From: Hymenobacter monticola
GTDB lineage: Bacteria > Bacteroidota > Bacteroidia > Cytophagales > Hymenobacteraceae
Direction: 5' to 3'
NCBI RefSeq assembly: GCF_022811645.1
Contig: NZ_CP094534.1
Coordinates: forward strand, 1,674,001 to 1,738,000
DNA: 64,000 bases
The notes beneath the pieces were generated by a model that worked only from the letters and a program-made list of their open reading frames with translations, searched no databases and was not told the origin of the DNA. Shown in pieces: positions 6,383-37,041 of this stretch; position 1 is the stretch's first letter; every line of letters begins with the position of its first letter. The translations under genes and the position numbers were made by a program.

Positions 6383-6787
6383 ATGCTGCCTCCCGCCACC
6401 GCCTTCCTGCCCGAAATCACCTTCCAAACCAGCCGGGCCAGCGGGCCGGGCGGACAGAACGTGAACAAGGTGGAATCGCGCGTGGAGCTGCGCTTTCCGT
6501 TGCGGGAATCGCAGGTGCTGACCGAGGAACAGAAGACGCTGATACTGGAGAAGTTGGGCAACCAACTCACGGCTGAGGGCCTGCTGCTCATTGCCGTGCA
6601 GGACGACCGCAGCCAGCTGCGTAACAAGGAAATTGCCCTGGCCCGCTTCCACGCCCTGCTGCTGAAAAGCCTGCGCCGCCCCAAGCCCCGCAAGGCCACC
6701 AAGCCCAGCAAAGCCGCCGTGCGCAAACGCTTGGATAGCAAAAAGATTCAGGGTGAGAAGAAGGCCAGCCGGCGCAAGCTGGAATAG
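6383..6787 (+). CDS. arfB: ArfB/YaeJ ribosome-rescue peptidyl-tRNA hydrolase
   Basis: This 134-residue protein has the release-factor catalytic domain only: ITFQTSRASGPGGQNVNKVE with GGQ at residues 23-25, followed by a basic Lys/Arg-rich C-terminal tail (KPRKATKPSKAAVRKR to KKASRRKLE). That layout is diagnostic of ArfB, whose tail enters the empty mRNA channel of a stalled ribosome while GGQ hydrolyses peptidyl-tRNA. The length matches the family (about 140). The start codon lies directly after REPIN A and a -7-like box, so its expression may depend on that repeat. Confidence 0.93.
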   Translation: MLPPATAFLPEITFQTSRASGPGGQNVNKVESRVELRFPLRESQVLTEEQKTLILEKLGNQLTAEGLLLIAVQDDRSQLRNKEIALARFHALLLKSLRRPKPRKATKPSKAAVRKRLDSKKIQGEKKASRRKLE

Positions 6788-6895
6788 GATGCCAAGCAAG
6801 CCGGGCTGCTGAGTCAGATTGCTGAGCGAGTGGGGTATTAACTGGCCGCTTCTGTGCGTTTCTTTGCTAAGCGCCACGTTTCGCAACCCGCCTTC

Positions 6896-9439
6896 ATGCC
6901 TTGGTCGACCAACTTCCGCCGTTATTGGTGGCTACTGCCGGTGTGCGCCGGGCTGATAGGAATTCTGCTTTTGCTGACCAAAGGACCTGACCCGCAGCCG
7001 ACTTCGGCTCCGGCCCGGAGGACAGTGCGCGCCAAACCCACTCCGCGCGTGCCCGGCGTCGTGAGCTCGCCCCTCGGCTCGGAAGAGCACATGGTGGCCA
7101 TGGCCGACTTCAACGGCGACGGCCACCTGGACCTGGCCCATGCCAACGAGAACTACGGCGAGTTCAATTTCGACCCGCAAGGCACCGTGACCGTCTGGTA
7201 CGGCGACGGCCGCGGGGGCCTGCGCCACGGGCCGGTGCTGCGCGACGCGGACGTGGTGGTGCTGGCGGGCCTCGACGCCGACGCGGACGGCGACGCCGAC
7301 CTGCTGACGGGCGGCAGCATCTACCAGCAAGCGGGCGGCCCCTTGCTGCTGTGGCGCAACGAGGGCCGGGGCCGGCTGGTGCCGCAGCCTGTTCCTGTAC
7401 TCCCCGATTGGGGCGATGTGGACGACCTGAACGTGGGCGATGTGGACGGCGACGGCGACCCCGACGTGGTGCTGGCCGCCGGCGCCCAGCTGGCGGTGGG
7501 GCTGAACGACGGGCATGGCCGCTGGCAATTCCGGAAAGTGGCCCAAAAGCACGGTTTCTACAACGAGCCTTACAAGCGCGTGGCCCTGGCCGACGTGGAC
7601 GGCGACCACGACCTGGATATCCTCTCGCCCGGCGAGCGGGGCAACATGCTCCTCAACGACGGCCAAGGCCACTTTGGCCACGAGCAAATTCTGCCGAAAT
7701 GCAGCGGCTACAGCGTGGCTATTGGCGACCTCAACGGCGACGCGCGGCCCGACCTGGTGATGGAACTGGGCGACATTGGCGAAGGCCAGTTGGGCGTGTT
7801 TCTGAACGACGGCCGCGGGCATTTCGGCCGGCCGGACCTAACGGATACGCTGGCGCACGACGGCCAAAGCCTGGTGGCGCTGGGCGACGTAGACCACGAC
7901 GGCGACCTCGACTTGGTTATCGGTAATGGGACGGTAGGGGTGCGCCTCAACCAGGGCCGGGGCACGTTTGAACCCCTCTACCGAGTGCCTGCGCCGTCGT
8001 CGCACATCCAAGAGCTTCACCTGGCTGACATCAACCACGACGGGCAACTCGACATGCTGGTGCCGAGCGATGTGACGCGGGCCCACCCCCGGCAGCCGCG
8101 GCGCGCTACCCTGGCCACTTTGGCCCCGCCCACGGGCCAGGAGTGTTACGAAGAAGTTGACCAACTGCCCATGGCTGTGGGGGGCGGGCCGGTGCATCTC
8201 GTGGTAGAGGCCGCCATGCTGGCCCGCCTCGTGCTGCCCGCCGGGTATAGCATCGGCCTGGCCTCCTTGCCGTACCGGATGGAGCTGGTGGTGGGCCAAA
8301 GCGGGGCGGTGGAGCACGTCCGGCTGGGTGGGCAGATTGCGCCCGCCGTCGACTCGGCCATGCTGGACACGCTGCGGCAACTGCGCCTGGCGCCCGGCCG
8401 GCTGCACGGCCGGGCGGTGCGCATGCTGCTGCCCCTGCAGCCCCGGCTGGCGGCGCAGGGCCCCCCGCGCACCTTGCTTACCGCCGAGCCCGGCGAGGCC
8501 CCGGTATACGCCCACGCCGACCGCCTGCCGACCGGGCCGGGCGGCGGGCCGCTGGTGCCGTATCTGCGAGAGCAGGTGTTGAACCATTTCCTGCTGCCCG
8601 ATACCGTGCGCGTGCCCCCGCACGGCCGTGTGGTGCTGGGCGGGGTGGTGGAGAAAGACGGGACCGTGACCAGCCGCCGGGGGCTAGACGAACTGCGGTC
8701 GGATATTGCCGAAACCTTGATTCCGGGCCTGGGCAGCGAGCAGCGGGTGGTGCCCGGCCGCCAGCACGGCCGGCGCGTGCGGGTGGCCGTGCGGGTGCCC
8801 ATCGAGCTCACCGGGCCGCATGCGCCCCTGCGTTACTCCGAAGCCCAGCGCCTCGAAGACCAGACCCGGCAGCGGGGCTGGGCCCGCCGGCGCCCCGATG
8901 AAACCGACGACCAGTTTGTGCGCCGGGTGCTGCCCATCTCGCTGGCGGAGGGTGGCTACGGCCGCGTGGTAGCCCACGCGTGGCGGCCCGGCGCGTTTGG
9001 CCGGCAACTGTTCCTCAGTGTCAGCCCCGGGCAGGGTGACAACCCGCACGGCACCGACCTGCTGGTGCTCGACCCCTATCGCCCTAACCGGTATGCCCTG
9101 AGCATATTGCCGGTGCGGGAGCTGGATGATGGTATTTCCCTGGAAGACTTCTTCTTTGCCGACGTGAACCGCGACGGACGCGAGGAATTGCTGGCCCTGA
9201 AGCGGTGCGACCTGCGCGGCACCCTGCTCACGCGCCACGGCCGCTACACCTATTCCGGCTCCGAGCCGCGCTACGCCACCGACGTTTTCTTCTTGGCTGG
9301 CACCAGCCGCGCCGGTCGCCCGCGCTACCGCCCCGACACGGCCGAACGTTTCTACCTCGACGACCTGCCCACCGTGGCGGCCGTGCGCCGCGCCCTGGCC
9401 CGGCACTGGGCCGGGGCTGGCCGGCGCAAGCGGGAGTAG
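6896..9439 (+). CDS. FG-GAP/VCBS repeat protein, membrane-anchored
   Basis: An 847-residue protein. The N-terminus has one hydrophobic segment (WWLLPVCAGLIGILLLLTKG) that may be an uncleaved anchor. It is followed by at least seven calcium-binding FG-GAP blades with DxDxDG-type loops: DFNGDGHLDLA, DADADGDADLL, DVDGDGDPDVV, DVDGDHDLDIL, DLNGDARPDLV, DVDHDGDLDLV and DINHDGQLDML, with another (DVNRDGREELL) near residue 750. The blades should form a beta-propeller. The roughly 350 residues between are Arg/Pro-rich and unrecognised. The ATG at 6896 is preferred to GTG at 6854 because it opens directly before the hydrophobic segment. No T9SS tail is present. Confidence 0.85.
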   Translation: MPWSTNFRRYWWLLPVCAGLIGILLLLTKGPDPQPTSAPARRTVRAKPTPRVPGVVSSPLGSEEHMVAMADFNGDGHLDLAHANENYGEFNFDPQGTVTVWYGDGRGGLRHGPVLRDADVVVLAGLDADADGDADLLTGGSIYQQAGGPLLLWRNEGRGRLVPQPVPVLPDWGDVDDLNVGDVDGDGDPDVVLAAGAQLAVGLNDGHGRWQFRKVAQKHGFYNEPYKRVALADVDGDHDLDILSPGERGNMLLNDGQGHFGHEQILPKCSGYSVAIGDLNGDARPDLVMELGDIGEGQLGVFLNDGRGHFGRPDLTDTLAHDGQSLVALGDVDHDGDLDLVIGNGTVGVRLNQGRGTFEPLYRVPAPSSHIQELHLADINHDGQLDMLVPSDVTRAHPRQPRRATLATLAPPTGQECYEEVDQLPMAVGGGPVHLVVEAAMLARLVLPAGYSIGLASLPYRMELVVGQSGAVEHVRLGGQIAPAVDSAMLDTLRQLRLAPGRLHGRAVRMLLPLQPRLAAQGPPRTLLTAEPGEAPVYAHADRLPTGPGGGPLVPYLREQVLNHFLLPDTVRVPPHGRVVLGGVVEKDGTVTSRRGLDELRSDIAETLIPGLGSEQRVVPGRQHGRRVRVAVRVPIELTGPHAPLRYSEAQRLEDQTRQRGWARRRPDETDDQFVRRVLPISLAEGGYGRVVAHAWRPGAFGRQLFLSVSPGQGDNPHGTDLLVLDPYRPNRYALSILPVRELDDGISLEDFFFADVNRDGREELLALKRCDLRGTLLTRHGRYTYSGSEPRYATDVFFLAGTSRAGRPRYRPDTAERFYLDDLPTVAAVRRALARHWAGAGRRKRE

Positions 9440-9448
9440 CAGCGACAT

Positions 9449-9749
9449 ACTTCCCGCAACCACCGGCACCCGTGCCCACAAGGGAAAGCACAGTAGGTAG
9501 GTGGCCCGGCACTAGTGCCGGTGGCTATGGGAAGTATGCTGATGCCTGCTGGCACCGGTGCCAGTACCCTTCGGCACACCTTCCACATGGCCCGGCACCA
9601 GTGCCAATAGGCATTGGCACACTGGCTACATAGCCCGCCACATGTGGCGGCAGGCATCAACACACCTCCCGCATGGCCCGCCACGCGTGGCGGTGGGCTT
9701 CGGCACACTGCCCACATGGACCGCCACGTGTGGCGGTGGTTGTGGGCAA
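9449..9749. repeat. array of seven 43-bp palindrome-centred units
   Basis: Seven dyad centres fall at 9470/71, 9513/14, 9556/57, 9599/600, 9642/43, 9685/86 and 9728/29, an exact 43-base period. Units 0-3 have the core GGCACNNGTGCC and units 4-6 have CCGCCACNNGTGGCGG, so the fifth base of one arm switches G to C while its partner switches C to G. The linkers are also related (recurring CATGGCCC before and GGCAC after the core). The array fills almost the whole 325-base gap between two convergent genes. 43 is not a multiple of three, so it is not coding. It is not CRISPR-like because the linkers resemble each other. Confidence 0.9.
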
Positions 9750-9764
9750 TGAAACCAGCCCGTG

Positions 9765-10475
9765 CTAATTCAAATCGAGGCCGAACAGGACGCCGAACCA
9801 GGGCTTGTGCTGGTACACCCAATGCTCCGCGTCGGGGCCCAGCAACTGGTCGAGGCCGGCGGCGAGGCCGATGTTGAAAGCCCGGGCATCGTAGATGGCG
9901 GCCAGGCCGCCGTGCAACACCACGCCCTCGTAGTCGGCGGCGGTGGGGCGGGCGGCGGCCGTCACGTCGTCGGTGATGAAGGTGGAGCCTGCCCCAATGA
10001 AGGCCCCGTAGCCCAGCCCTGTGGCCCGGATGTGCGGCGTGGGCCCAAACGGGGTGGTGCGTTTGGTGCGCAAGGAGTAGAAATCGAGCCGCCGGCCCAC
10101 GTAAAGGGCGGCGTTGAAATTGGTGTTGAGCTGCACCGGCACCCCGCCCTGCGGCGGCCGCACCTTGAAGGGAATGGTGAACACGTCGAGGTCGAGCCGG
10201 CGGCGCAGCAGCCACAGCCGCTGGGTGGGCAGCAGGGCGTAGCGGTAGGTGCGGGGCCGGCCGGCGGGCGCGTCGGGCGTCAGCAGCAGGGTATCGGCCC
10301 GCTGCTGCACATAAAGCGGCTGGTTGGAGGCCAGCGCCGCCAGCGTGTCGCCCGCCGGGCGGTGCACCACGCGGTAGTAGCCGTCGTCGAGCTGCGTCAC
10401 GTTGCCCAGCACCGCGCAGCCGCCCAGTGCCAGCGCGGCCGCGGGCAGCAGCAAGGAGGAGCGGTAGCGGGGCAT
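9765..10475 (-). CDS. hypothetical lipoprotein
   Basis: A 236-residue protein with a lipobox: LALGGC with Cys20 after a short basic and hydrophobic signal (MPRYRSSLLLPAAALALGGC). After that come YYRVVHRPAGDTLAAL and alternating strands such as NTNFNAALYVGRRLDFYS and GYGAFIGAGSTFITDDV, and it ends FGVLFGLDLN. This suggests a small beta-barrel or lipocalin-like outer-membrane protein. I do not recognise the family. Its 3' end faces the 43-bp array and the FG-GAP gene convergently. Confidence 0.75.
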   Translation of the reverse strand: MPRYRSSLLLPAAALALGGCAVLGNVTQLDDGYYRVVHRPAGDTLAALASNQPLYVQQRADTLLLTPDAPAGRPRTYRYALLPTQRLWLLRRRLDLDVFTIPFKVRPPQGGVPVQLNTNFNAALYVGRRLDFYSLRTKRTTPFGPTPHIRATGLGYGAFIGAGSTFITDDVTAAARPTAADYEGVVLHGGLAAIYDARAFNIGLAAGLDQLLGPDAEHWVYQHKPWFGVLFGLDLN

Positions 10476-10614: not shown

Positions 10615-11991
10615 TTACAGCAGCGTGCCGCGCAAAAGCAGCAGGGCCACGGTGAAATAGATAATCAGCCCCGTTACGTCTACCAGCGTGGCTACAAAGG
10701 GCGCCGACGAAGTGGCCGGGTCCAGCCCCAGCTTCTTGAGCAGCAGCGGCAGCATGGAGCCCGCCAACGAGCCCCACAGCACAATGCCCACCAGCGCCAC
10801 GCCCACCGTGAGGGCCACCAGCACCCAATGCTCGCCGTAGATGGGCGTGATGCTTTGCCAGATGGCAATGCGCCCGAAGCCCACCAGCCCCAGAATCAAA
10901 CCCAGGGCCAGGCCCGTGATGATTTCGCGCCGCAGCACCCGCCACCACTCGCCCAGCGTGAACTCGCCCAGCGCCATGGCCCGGATGATGAGCGAGGTGG
11001 CCTGCGAGCCCGAGTTGCCCCCGGAGCTGATGATGAGCGGCACGAACTGCATGAGCACGATGGCCTTTTGCAGCTCGCCCTCGAAGAACTGCATGGCCGA
11101 AGCCGTGAGCAGTTCGCCCAGAAACAGCACCACCAGCCAGCCGGCCCGCTTCTGCACCAGCCGCATGAGCGGCATGGTGAGGTAAGGCTCGTCCAGTGCC
11201 TCGGAGCCGCCCAGCTTCTGAATGTCCTCGGTGTCTTCTTCCTCGCGAATGCTGAGGATGTCGTCCTGCGTCACGATGCCAAGCAGAATGCCCGAATCTG
11301 ACACCACGGGCAGGGCAATGCGGTCGTTGCGCCGGAAAATATCAATGGCTTCCTCCTGGTCCTGGGCGGCGTTCAGGCTCACGTAGCGGCGGTCCATGAG
11401 GTCGCGCACCCGGGCGGCGGGCGCCGAGAGCAGAAACTCCCGAATGCGGATGTCGTCGATGAGCACGCCGTGGGCATCGGTCACGTAGAGCATGCTCAGC
11501 GTTTCGGACTGCCCGCCGTGCTGGCGGATGTAGTCGAGCACCTGCTGCACCGTCCAGTTCTCGCGGATGGCGATGTAGTCGGGCGTCATCAGCCGGCCCA
11601 CCGAGTATTCGGGGTAGCCCAGCAGTTGCAGCGTCACCTTGCGTTCTTCCTCGCTCAGGCTTTGCACCAGCTCGGCCACGAAGTTGGCGGGCAGAAACTC
11701 CAGCAGGGCCGTGCGGTCGTCGGGCGACATCTCGTTGAGGATGTCGGCCATCTTGTCCTGGGCCAGGTTGGCCAGGAAGTGCCGTTGCACCTCCAAATCG
11801 AGGTATTCGAACACCTCGGTGGCCAGCTTGAGCGGCAGCAGCCGAAAGATGATGAGCTGTTCCCGGTCCTCTTCGGCCTCAATGAGCGCCACCAGCTCCG
11901 AGGGCTGGAAATCGCGAAGCAGCTGCTTTAACTTAAAAAATTCGCCCTCCTGAATCAGGGACGTGATGGTTTCCACGGTCTGCGGCTGCAT
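10615..11991 (-). CDS. mgtE: magnesium transporter MgtE
   Basis: The 458-residue protein has the full MgtE layout: an N-terminal superhelical domain (residues 1 to about 125, with LLPLKLATEVFEYLD and MSPDDRTALLEFLP), paired CBS domains (about 130-250, including VSDSGILLGIVTQDDIL) and five membrane segments from about residue 275. The pore segment FVPLIISSGGNSGSQATSLIIRAMALGE carries the conserved SGGNSGSQ signature. It is an inner-membrane Mg2+ channel that closes when its cytosolic domain binds Mg2+. A -7 box lies about 65 bases upstream of the ATG. No M-box riboswitch is visible in the short leader. Confidence 0.97.
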   Translation of the reverse strand: MQPQTVETITSLIQEGEFFKLKQLLRDFQPSELVALIEAEEDREQLIIFRLLPLKLATEVFEYLDLEVQRHFLANLAQDKMADILNEMSPDDRTALLEFLPANFVAELVQSLSEEERKVTLQLLGYPEYSVGRLMTPDYIAIRENWTVQQVLDYIRQHGGQSETLSMLYVTDAHGVLIDDIRIREFLLSAPAARVRDLMDRRYVSLNAAQDQEEAIDIFRRNDRIALPVVSDSGILLGIVTQDDILSIREEEDTEDIQKLGGSEALDEPYLTMPLMRLVQKRAGWLVVLFLGELLTASAMQFFEGELQKAIVLMQFVPLIISSGGNSGSQATSLIIRAMALGEFTLGEWWRVLRREIITGLALGLILGLVGFGRIAIWQSITPIYGEHWVLVALTVGVALVGIVLWGSLAGSMLPLLLKKLGLDPATSSAPFVATLVDVTGLIIYFTVALLLLRGTLL

Positions 11992-36273: not shown

Positions 36274-36364
36274 TTGCTTGTTGTTCGTTGTCGGTTATTA
36301 GTTTGAGCTAATGGCTGATAACCGGCCTGACAACTAACAACCAACAACTGACAACCAAACCATT
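36274..36364. repeat. GTTGT-word low-complexity hairpin, atpF-atpH spacer
   Basis: The spacer is made of GTTGT/ACAAC words. GTTGTCGGTTATTAG (36287-36301) pairs with 36315-36334 with a 5-base bulge, and the outer flanks (TTGCTTGTTGTTC and AACAACCAACAACTG) are also complementary in style. Confidence 0.65.
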
Positions 36365-36925: not shown

Positions 36926-37041
36926 GGTTTTAAGTATTAAGTATCAGGTAATAAGTAGTTAGCTTGCGCTACGCTTTCCTCTGGATACCAACTACTTGCT
37001 ACTAGCTACTTACTACTAACTACTACTTAATTCCCCATACA
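36926..37041. repeat. AAGTAG-word low-complexity hairpin, atpH-atpA spacer
   Basis: The left half is built of AAGTATT/AAGTAGTTAG words and the right half of their complements (CTACTTGCTACTAGCTACTT and similar), with a GC-richer centre near 36965-36990. It forms an imperfect long hairpin. Confidence 0.65.

Follow-up and report, generated by a model that had tools for sequence, protein, structure and literature searches.

Palindrome arrays with a pitch of 42 or 43 bp, usually behind genes of a predicted helical protein family, in Hymenobacter

Introduction

A row of seven palindromes occupies the gap between two convergent genes of Hymenobacter monticola, and raises the question of what kind of element it is and what, if anything, recognises it. 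The array spans positions 9449-9749 of the window, by which we mean the whole 64-kb stretch of contig NZ_CP094534.1 that was analysed. An initial annotation, made from the letters alone, had described seven dyads exactly 43 bases apart, and the centres, at 9470+43k (k = 0 to 6), confirm this. With 7-bp arms and the central dinucleotide left out, the arms of units 0-6 match at 5, 7, 7, 5, 7, 7 and 7 of 7 positions; taken over the whole window, at least 5/7 is attained at 1.9% of positions and 7/7 at 0.016%. The units are as follows.

9449..9491, array unit 0: dyad 9470/9471, arms 5/7, decayed
9492..9534, array unit 1: dyad 9513/9514, arms 7/7
9535..9577, array unit 2: dyad 9556/9557, arms 7/7
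9578..9620, array unit 3: dyad 9599/9600, arms 5/7, decayed
9621..9663, array unit 4: dyad 9642/9643, arms 7/7
9664..9706, array unit 5: dyad 9685/9686, arms 7/7
9707..9749, array unit 6: dyad 9728/9729, arms 7/7; outer arms TGCCCACA/TGTGGGCA by eye

At arm position 5 the G-C pair of units 0-3 becomes C-G in units 4-6, and units 1, 2, 4 and 5 have a self-complementary central dinucleotide, both as previously described. At arm position 7 unit 2 does carry T-A, but the description of all the others as C-G fails for unit 0 (C-C) and unit 3 (C-A). What that annotation lacked is the main point, the link of these arrays to a protein family.

We hold with high confidence that the window array belongs to a family of gene-linked palindrome arrays. 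This family is so far unnamed, and its members usually lie right behind genes of a protein here called X. A literature search brought up no publication that we recognised as treating these arrays, though one may be in print.

Linkage of the arrays to protein X

The gene beside arrays of both pitches is homologous in 11 loci, and its product, X, belongs to a diverse, predicted all-helical family of about 235 amino acids. The X loci were surveyed as 49 rows, some of them duplicated, broken or mis-framed, in which 450 nt behind the X stop codon were scanned with pitches of 25-70 allowed. At least three dyads were present in 33 of the 49 rows, at pitch 42 in 29 and at pitch 43 in four. Two further rows had runs of three at pitches 63 and 69, and two loci (L261, L266) have dyads 41 apart. 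None of the upstream controls contained at least three dyads at 42 or 43, and they yielded one run of three, at pitch 60. Setting aside the near-duplicates L227, L240 and L249 and including the two-unit L231 and L232 gives 32 X-linked arrays with a total of 154 units, the commonest form (15/32) having five. In 27 of the 32, a distance of 10-52 nt separates the X stop from the first dyad.

The association is also seen between genomes. Among the matches listed, X occurs in 17 of 18 genomes with recognised arrays of the window's core type versus 17 of 102 others (Fisher p 2e-10) and, for orphan arrays only, that is, those with no X gene beside them, in 11 of 12 versus 23 of 108 (p 2e-6); both tables ignore kinship and count genomes holding only other core types as array-free.

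A single query detected X in 34 of 120 genomes of the genus, and a wider alignment search in 23 of 390 genomes of the order, representing 5 of 129 genera. The gene is multi-copy, the H. monticola genome having six matches at five places. A check of X beyond the genus, covering 12 loci of which L279 is mis-framed and L293 a fragment, revealed at least three dyads at 42 in four (G196, G064, G037, G000); G196, from a sister genus, carries a pitch-42 array. No array was present at the single X locus examined in each of G293, G207, G255 and G251, of which G293 and G251 each have a second X match, and two of these four loci show by eye a single terminator-like hairpin.

A family search with 22 members of X and E values up to 1 gave no usable match, only unspecific single hits and no toxin family. 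The structure model is helical, with a predicted local distance difference test (pLDDT) of 85 and a predicted template modelling score (pTM) of 0.53, and a fold search with this model, DNA-binding folds included, had no significant match at that pTM. By eye, K and R are often abundant in the C-terminal tail. Broken copies of X, namely L234 in G039 (internal stop), L293 in G009 (fragment) and L257 in G000 (truncation), suggest that the gene is frequently lost.

Architecture of the arrays

Complementarity in the 136 pitch-42 units starts from 60% at the axis, reaches 93-99% at the next four positions, then drops to 32-40% and climbs again to as much as 71% in the outer arms, 27% being expected from composition. 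The X subfamilies have different cores, e.g. TTGCCAC, TGCACC, GGTACGC, TTCCGGAG, CTTCTT and CCGGAC, while the outer arms share part of a motif (at the 14th position A in 58%, the mirrored T in 52%). The unit borders constitute a second, weaker dyad, which is even at pitch 42 and odd at pitch 43, the extra base in the latter being A or T in 40 of 44. A tally of the arrays as found gives 140 spacings of 42 and 44 of 43, with the slips in L201 and L202 uncounted. It is no independent test of pitch because runs of equal pitch are equal by construction; the independent test is the 25-70 scan described above. A single near-perfect palindrome, defined as a unit with at least 11 of 13 outer pairs, occurs in 15 of 30 arrays, as at 1747 in L137, 5120 in L205, 5154 in L217 and 5095 in L226, and in some arrays the units on either side of it look, by eye, oppositely oriented.

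Arrays in related genomes

Searches of the genus and family, which the initial annotation had proposed, recovered arrays at 42 or 43 bp in other Hymenobacter genomes. An equal-pitch scan for at least three dyads at pitches of 15-90 covered 617 kb from 45 Hymenobacter sources, 40 of which are arfB regions (after the arfB-like gene near the window array), two of these being already known to hold arrays. At pitch 43 it returned the window array and the two arrays known beforehand. The runs longer than three were those of the two pitch-43 relatives, the window array scoring three in a row at the strict threshold, and the other runs were one chance run of three each at pitches 20, 58 and 81. Of the controls, 80 loci from outside Hymenobacter (1.23 Mb) contained four runs of three, each at a different pitch, and five shuffles gave one run.

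A pattern search of its own genome identified the window array as the sole array of its core type. A DNA search of the 120 genus genomes matched five others, among which G023 has only a short match and no array; 17 of the 120 were hit by a covariance model built on double units; and a pattern search with pitches of 30 to 60 allowed matched 31 of 204 family genomes. Among the matches listed for the last search, a set without G103 and G108 and others, the arrays of the window kind are spaced 42 or 43 bp, the remainder being isolated hits, one simple repeat and another repeat family in G003, G035 and G058. The searches for orphans were seeded by the window's core type, orphans with other cores being outside their scope. 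The repeat family in G003, G035 and G058 (L172, L180, L185) is a different dispersed palindrome, GGCACTTGTGCC/GGCACAAGTGCC, with spacings of 33-34 and 59. Downstream of the array in L014, L037 and L023 (G008 and G091) there are repeated CCCCCTCTCCC/GGGAGAGGGGG hairpins, apparently of yet another palindromic family.

The covariation of the arms, which it had been suggested should be tested, was assessed in 42 aligned units from eight loci, one of which has a 1-nt change of phase. Paired cells amount to 65.8% versus 62.3% in shuffles, none of the 500 reaching the observed value, and slid registers give 32-46%. Automatic phasing assigned L203 a pitch of 36 and failed on L206, L211 and L225; for these arrays the pitch was chosen by hand. 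The spacing, whose conservation the initial annotation had left for relatives to decide, is retained in them with rare 1-nt slips only, seen in the pitch-43 arrays L201 and L202. Arrays of equal pitch in one genome resemble each other in core more than those of different genomes (similarity 0.738 versus 0.673, p 0.03), which is clear in G037, G044, G039 and G016 and not in G066. At the gap orthologous to that of the window, G039 has one clear unit and, by eye, a decayed second, versus seven in the window; the core of its unit, GCCGC, is that of the X-linked array of G039.

A pitch specific to the genome or clade was considered and overturned, the H. monticola genome itself having pitch-42 arrays beside other X genes (L258-L260). 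Because of these, pitch goes with subfamily A of X and not with the genome. In a tree of 40 genomes, from which G006, G037 and G099 are omitted, seven pitch-42 genomes fall in one clade with a support of 1.000.

Recognition of the arrays as DNA or RNA

The pair adjacent to the axis is complementary in 32 of 32 X-linked arrays (C-G 17, G-C 8, A-T 4, T-A 3), with 11.8 expected by shuffling, and the axis dinucleotide in 21 of 32, with 10.2 expected. The axis-adjacent pair would close a 2-nt loop, which is impossible in an RNA hairpin. G.T makes up 57 and A.C 42 of 1085 cells on the X sense strand, two chance runs included, no clear excess. The pairing beside the axis and the lack of a clear G.T excess both favour double-stranded DNA read with two-fold symmetry, which is the best fit. 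The earlier hint at a DNA palindrome for a dimer thus gains support; the binding of a dimer is something that we infer. On balance we lean towards the reading that X binds the array as double-stranded DNA, the best one that these sequences offer.

In its favour, X identity correlates with core identity over the 32 arrays (Mantel r 0.462, p 0.0005), which a protein that reads the core would lead one to expect, but so would mere co-inheritance of gene and array. Several points weigh against it. Because arrays within a subfamily are not independent of each other, the effective n is below 32. Of 30 array loci, 28 follow a stop codon by no more than 80 nt (L207 and L215 are exceptions because an X gene or fragment just before the array was skipped when the neighbouring gene was picked) and 17 sit between convergent genes, and for either strand of the window array the RNA fold is better than in 100 shuffled sequences (z -4.9 and -5.4); a role of the arrays in the transcript is possible. 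The position behind stop codons, the convergent neighbours and the folding all speak for arrays that act as RNA, the transcribed 3' ends folding into a row of hairpins that is bound by X or that protects or terminates mRNA from either side, and some first units do resemble terminators with an A-run, GC stem and T-run (L260, L273, L285). This alternative deserves to be taken seriously, but we consider it doubtful: besides the complementary axis-adjacent pair in 32/32 arrays and the want of a clear G.T excess, the window contains no terminator-like site (GC stem then T-run) between 9400 and 9800, TTTT follows the core by at most 13 nt in 6 of 154 X-linked units, and hairpins need no near-exact pitch. 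Bidirectional intrinsic terminators likewise fill convergent gaps with hairpin-forming sequence, but here T-runs are found at few units, and several units follow each other at near-exact pitch.

A proposed module and other explanations

On our preferred reading the window array is an orphan member of a two-part genetic module of Hymenobacter and at least one sister genus, which consists of X and then a tandem array, most often of five palindromes, whose start coincides with the X stop codon or follows closely behind it. A unit has a core of some 16 bp, which varies and is characteristic of the X subfamily, flanked by outer arms; these share part of a motif and, where two units adjoin, form the second, weaker dyad. 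Core and border dyads alternate about every 21 bp, or two helical turns, and would therefore lie on the same face of the DNA. X, as a homodimer or higher multimer, would recognise its cognate core in double-stranded DNA and line up cooperatively along the array, a fixed contact between neighbouring molecules setting the pitch at 43 bp in subfamily A and at 42 bp otherwise. Where an orphan array follows some other gene, it may serve the X of its genome as an additional docking site, or be a relic of an X since lost. More tentatively, and as something we think possible rather than probable, X and array might make up a self-contained nucleoprotein module of a new kind, with several orthogonal pairs per genome and co-evolution of protein and core; X would then set the 42/43-bp pitch and would govern and homogenise the orphan arrays, with the result that the 3' ends of their genes would amount to a small regulon or to a system that spreads arrays.

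Selfish or neutral tandem repeats, whose units are copied by slippage and whose arms are kept matched by template switching within palindromes, with X as a hitch-hiker, would account for the different number of units at the orthologous site in G039, for the register slips in L201 and L202, and for the single unit with at least 11 of 13 outer pairs in half of the 30 arrays, as template switching would give. We judge this improbable, as drift would not be expected to leave strongly diverged units in register apart from those slips, to give unrelated cores one and the same pitch, or to produce the link with one protein family. Type III toxin-antitoxin systems (ToxIN), in which the array would be the RNA antitoxin and X the toxin, also combine a single gene with a short tandem array. 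The arrays of such systems, of which CptIN and TenpIN are further examples, have units of similar length. According to an excerpt of one account, repeat type tracks protein type in ToxIN clusters, and type III arrays lie upstream of the toxin gene with a terminator between them (PMC8860590). The tracking is shared by X and its arrays, but the latter are downstream of the gene, their axis symmetry points to DNA, orphan arrays occur without an adjoining X, and X is helical and matches no toxin family, where type III systems have an endoribonuclease of a known family, so that we regard such a system as very unlikely here.

Equally little speaks for repetitive extragenic palindromic (REP) elements and the bacterial interspersed mosaic elements (BIMEs) built from them, spread by a Y1 transposase (TnpA-REP, the REP-associated tyrosine transposase or RAYT), which were already disfavoured and to which we give scant credence. 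They too are extragenic palindromes behind genes, with regular spacing in BIMEs and a cognate protein of matching repeat type, and the H. monticola genome has four Y1_Tnp matches, one of them 0.4 kb behind the X-linked array L259. However, REPs usually exceed 100 copies per genome, according to an excerpt of PMC2817692, and here there are few arrays per genome, at pitch 42/43. Cores with at most one mismatch number 48 in the H. monticola genome, array units included, and 18-29 in G056, G010, G002 and G001, four genomes without recognised arrays, and the reversed control pattern is commoner than the core (56-319). A GTAG/GTGG head is not consistent, GT[AG]G standing beside the core in only 18 of 88 pitch-43 and 13 of 136 pitch-42 units. 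The partner was not recognised as a Y1 transposase, and in the genome search no cognate Y1 transposase flanked by repeats was found at the window array, the nearest Y1_Tnp match being about 272 kb away. Tandem operator or centromere arrays of the parS/parC kind also have phased dyad sites near the gene of a presumed binding protein, but the X arrays are at the 3' end, there are several different pairs per genome, and no DNA-binding fold was recognised. A clustered regularly interspaced short palindromic repeat (CRISPR) array, in which unique spacers separate near-identical repeats, does not fit: the units here diverge, and between the cores lies partly conserved, dyad-symmetric sequence.

The window array in its genome

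The window array is an orphan, no X gene lying beside it. Other X genes of this genome (G000) are followed by dyads:

C1:1306526-1307227, X gene, then a pitch-42 array
C1:1954266-1954969, X gene split into two frames, then a pitch-42 array
C1:4912610-4913305, X gene, then a pitch-42 array
C1:489370-490050, X gene, then two dyads 41 apart

A Y1_Tnp match (C1:1955577-1955825) is situated about 0.4 kb behind L259, the array whose X gene is frame-split. The genome's own subfamily-A X is truncated; about the first half is kept at the locus where relatives carry X plus array, and the rest of the gene and the array are replaced by other sequence. The window array may therefore have lost its partner. 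It is an orphan of subfamily A, and its two decayed units agree with such a loss.

The placement of the array in the gap between an FG-GAP gene and a convergent lipoprotein-like gene, as first described, agrees with the gene coordinates:

6383..6787, + strand, arfB-like gene, marker of the syntenic arfB-mgtE locus
6854..9439, + strand, FG-GAP repeat protein gene (Pfam), flanking the array, stop codon 10 nt from it
9765..10475, - strand, convergent lipoprotein-like gene of 236 amino acids (lipobox by eye), flanking the array, stop codon 16 nt from it
10615..11991, - strand, mgtE-like gene, the other marker of the syntenic locus

Of the two markers, we take 6383..6787 to be arfB-like and 10615..11991 to be mgtE-like. 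A Pfam search with the 236-amino acid protein gave no match, and Rfam models had no match in the window at gathering thresholds. Where the arfB-mgtE gap is free of arrays, one long inverted repeat is visible by eye in L134 (G067), L135 (G089), L146 (G072), L151 (G009) and L147 (G011); its sequence differs between most species, which amounts to hairpin turnover at one locus. Elsewhere in the window there are two short 14-bp tandem repeats (36330-36358 and 36986-37024).

Significance

Since the array points to the likely ligand of X, an orphan protein family becomes directly testable. With its many different cores, each repeated beside its own gene, the X family offers a data set on the evolution of protein-DNA specificity. 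If the proposed module is true, it would represent a previously unknown layer of gene-end biology in Hymenobacter.
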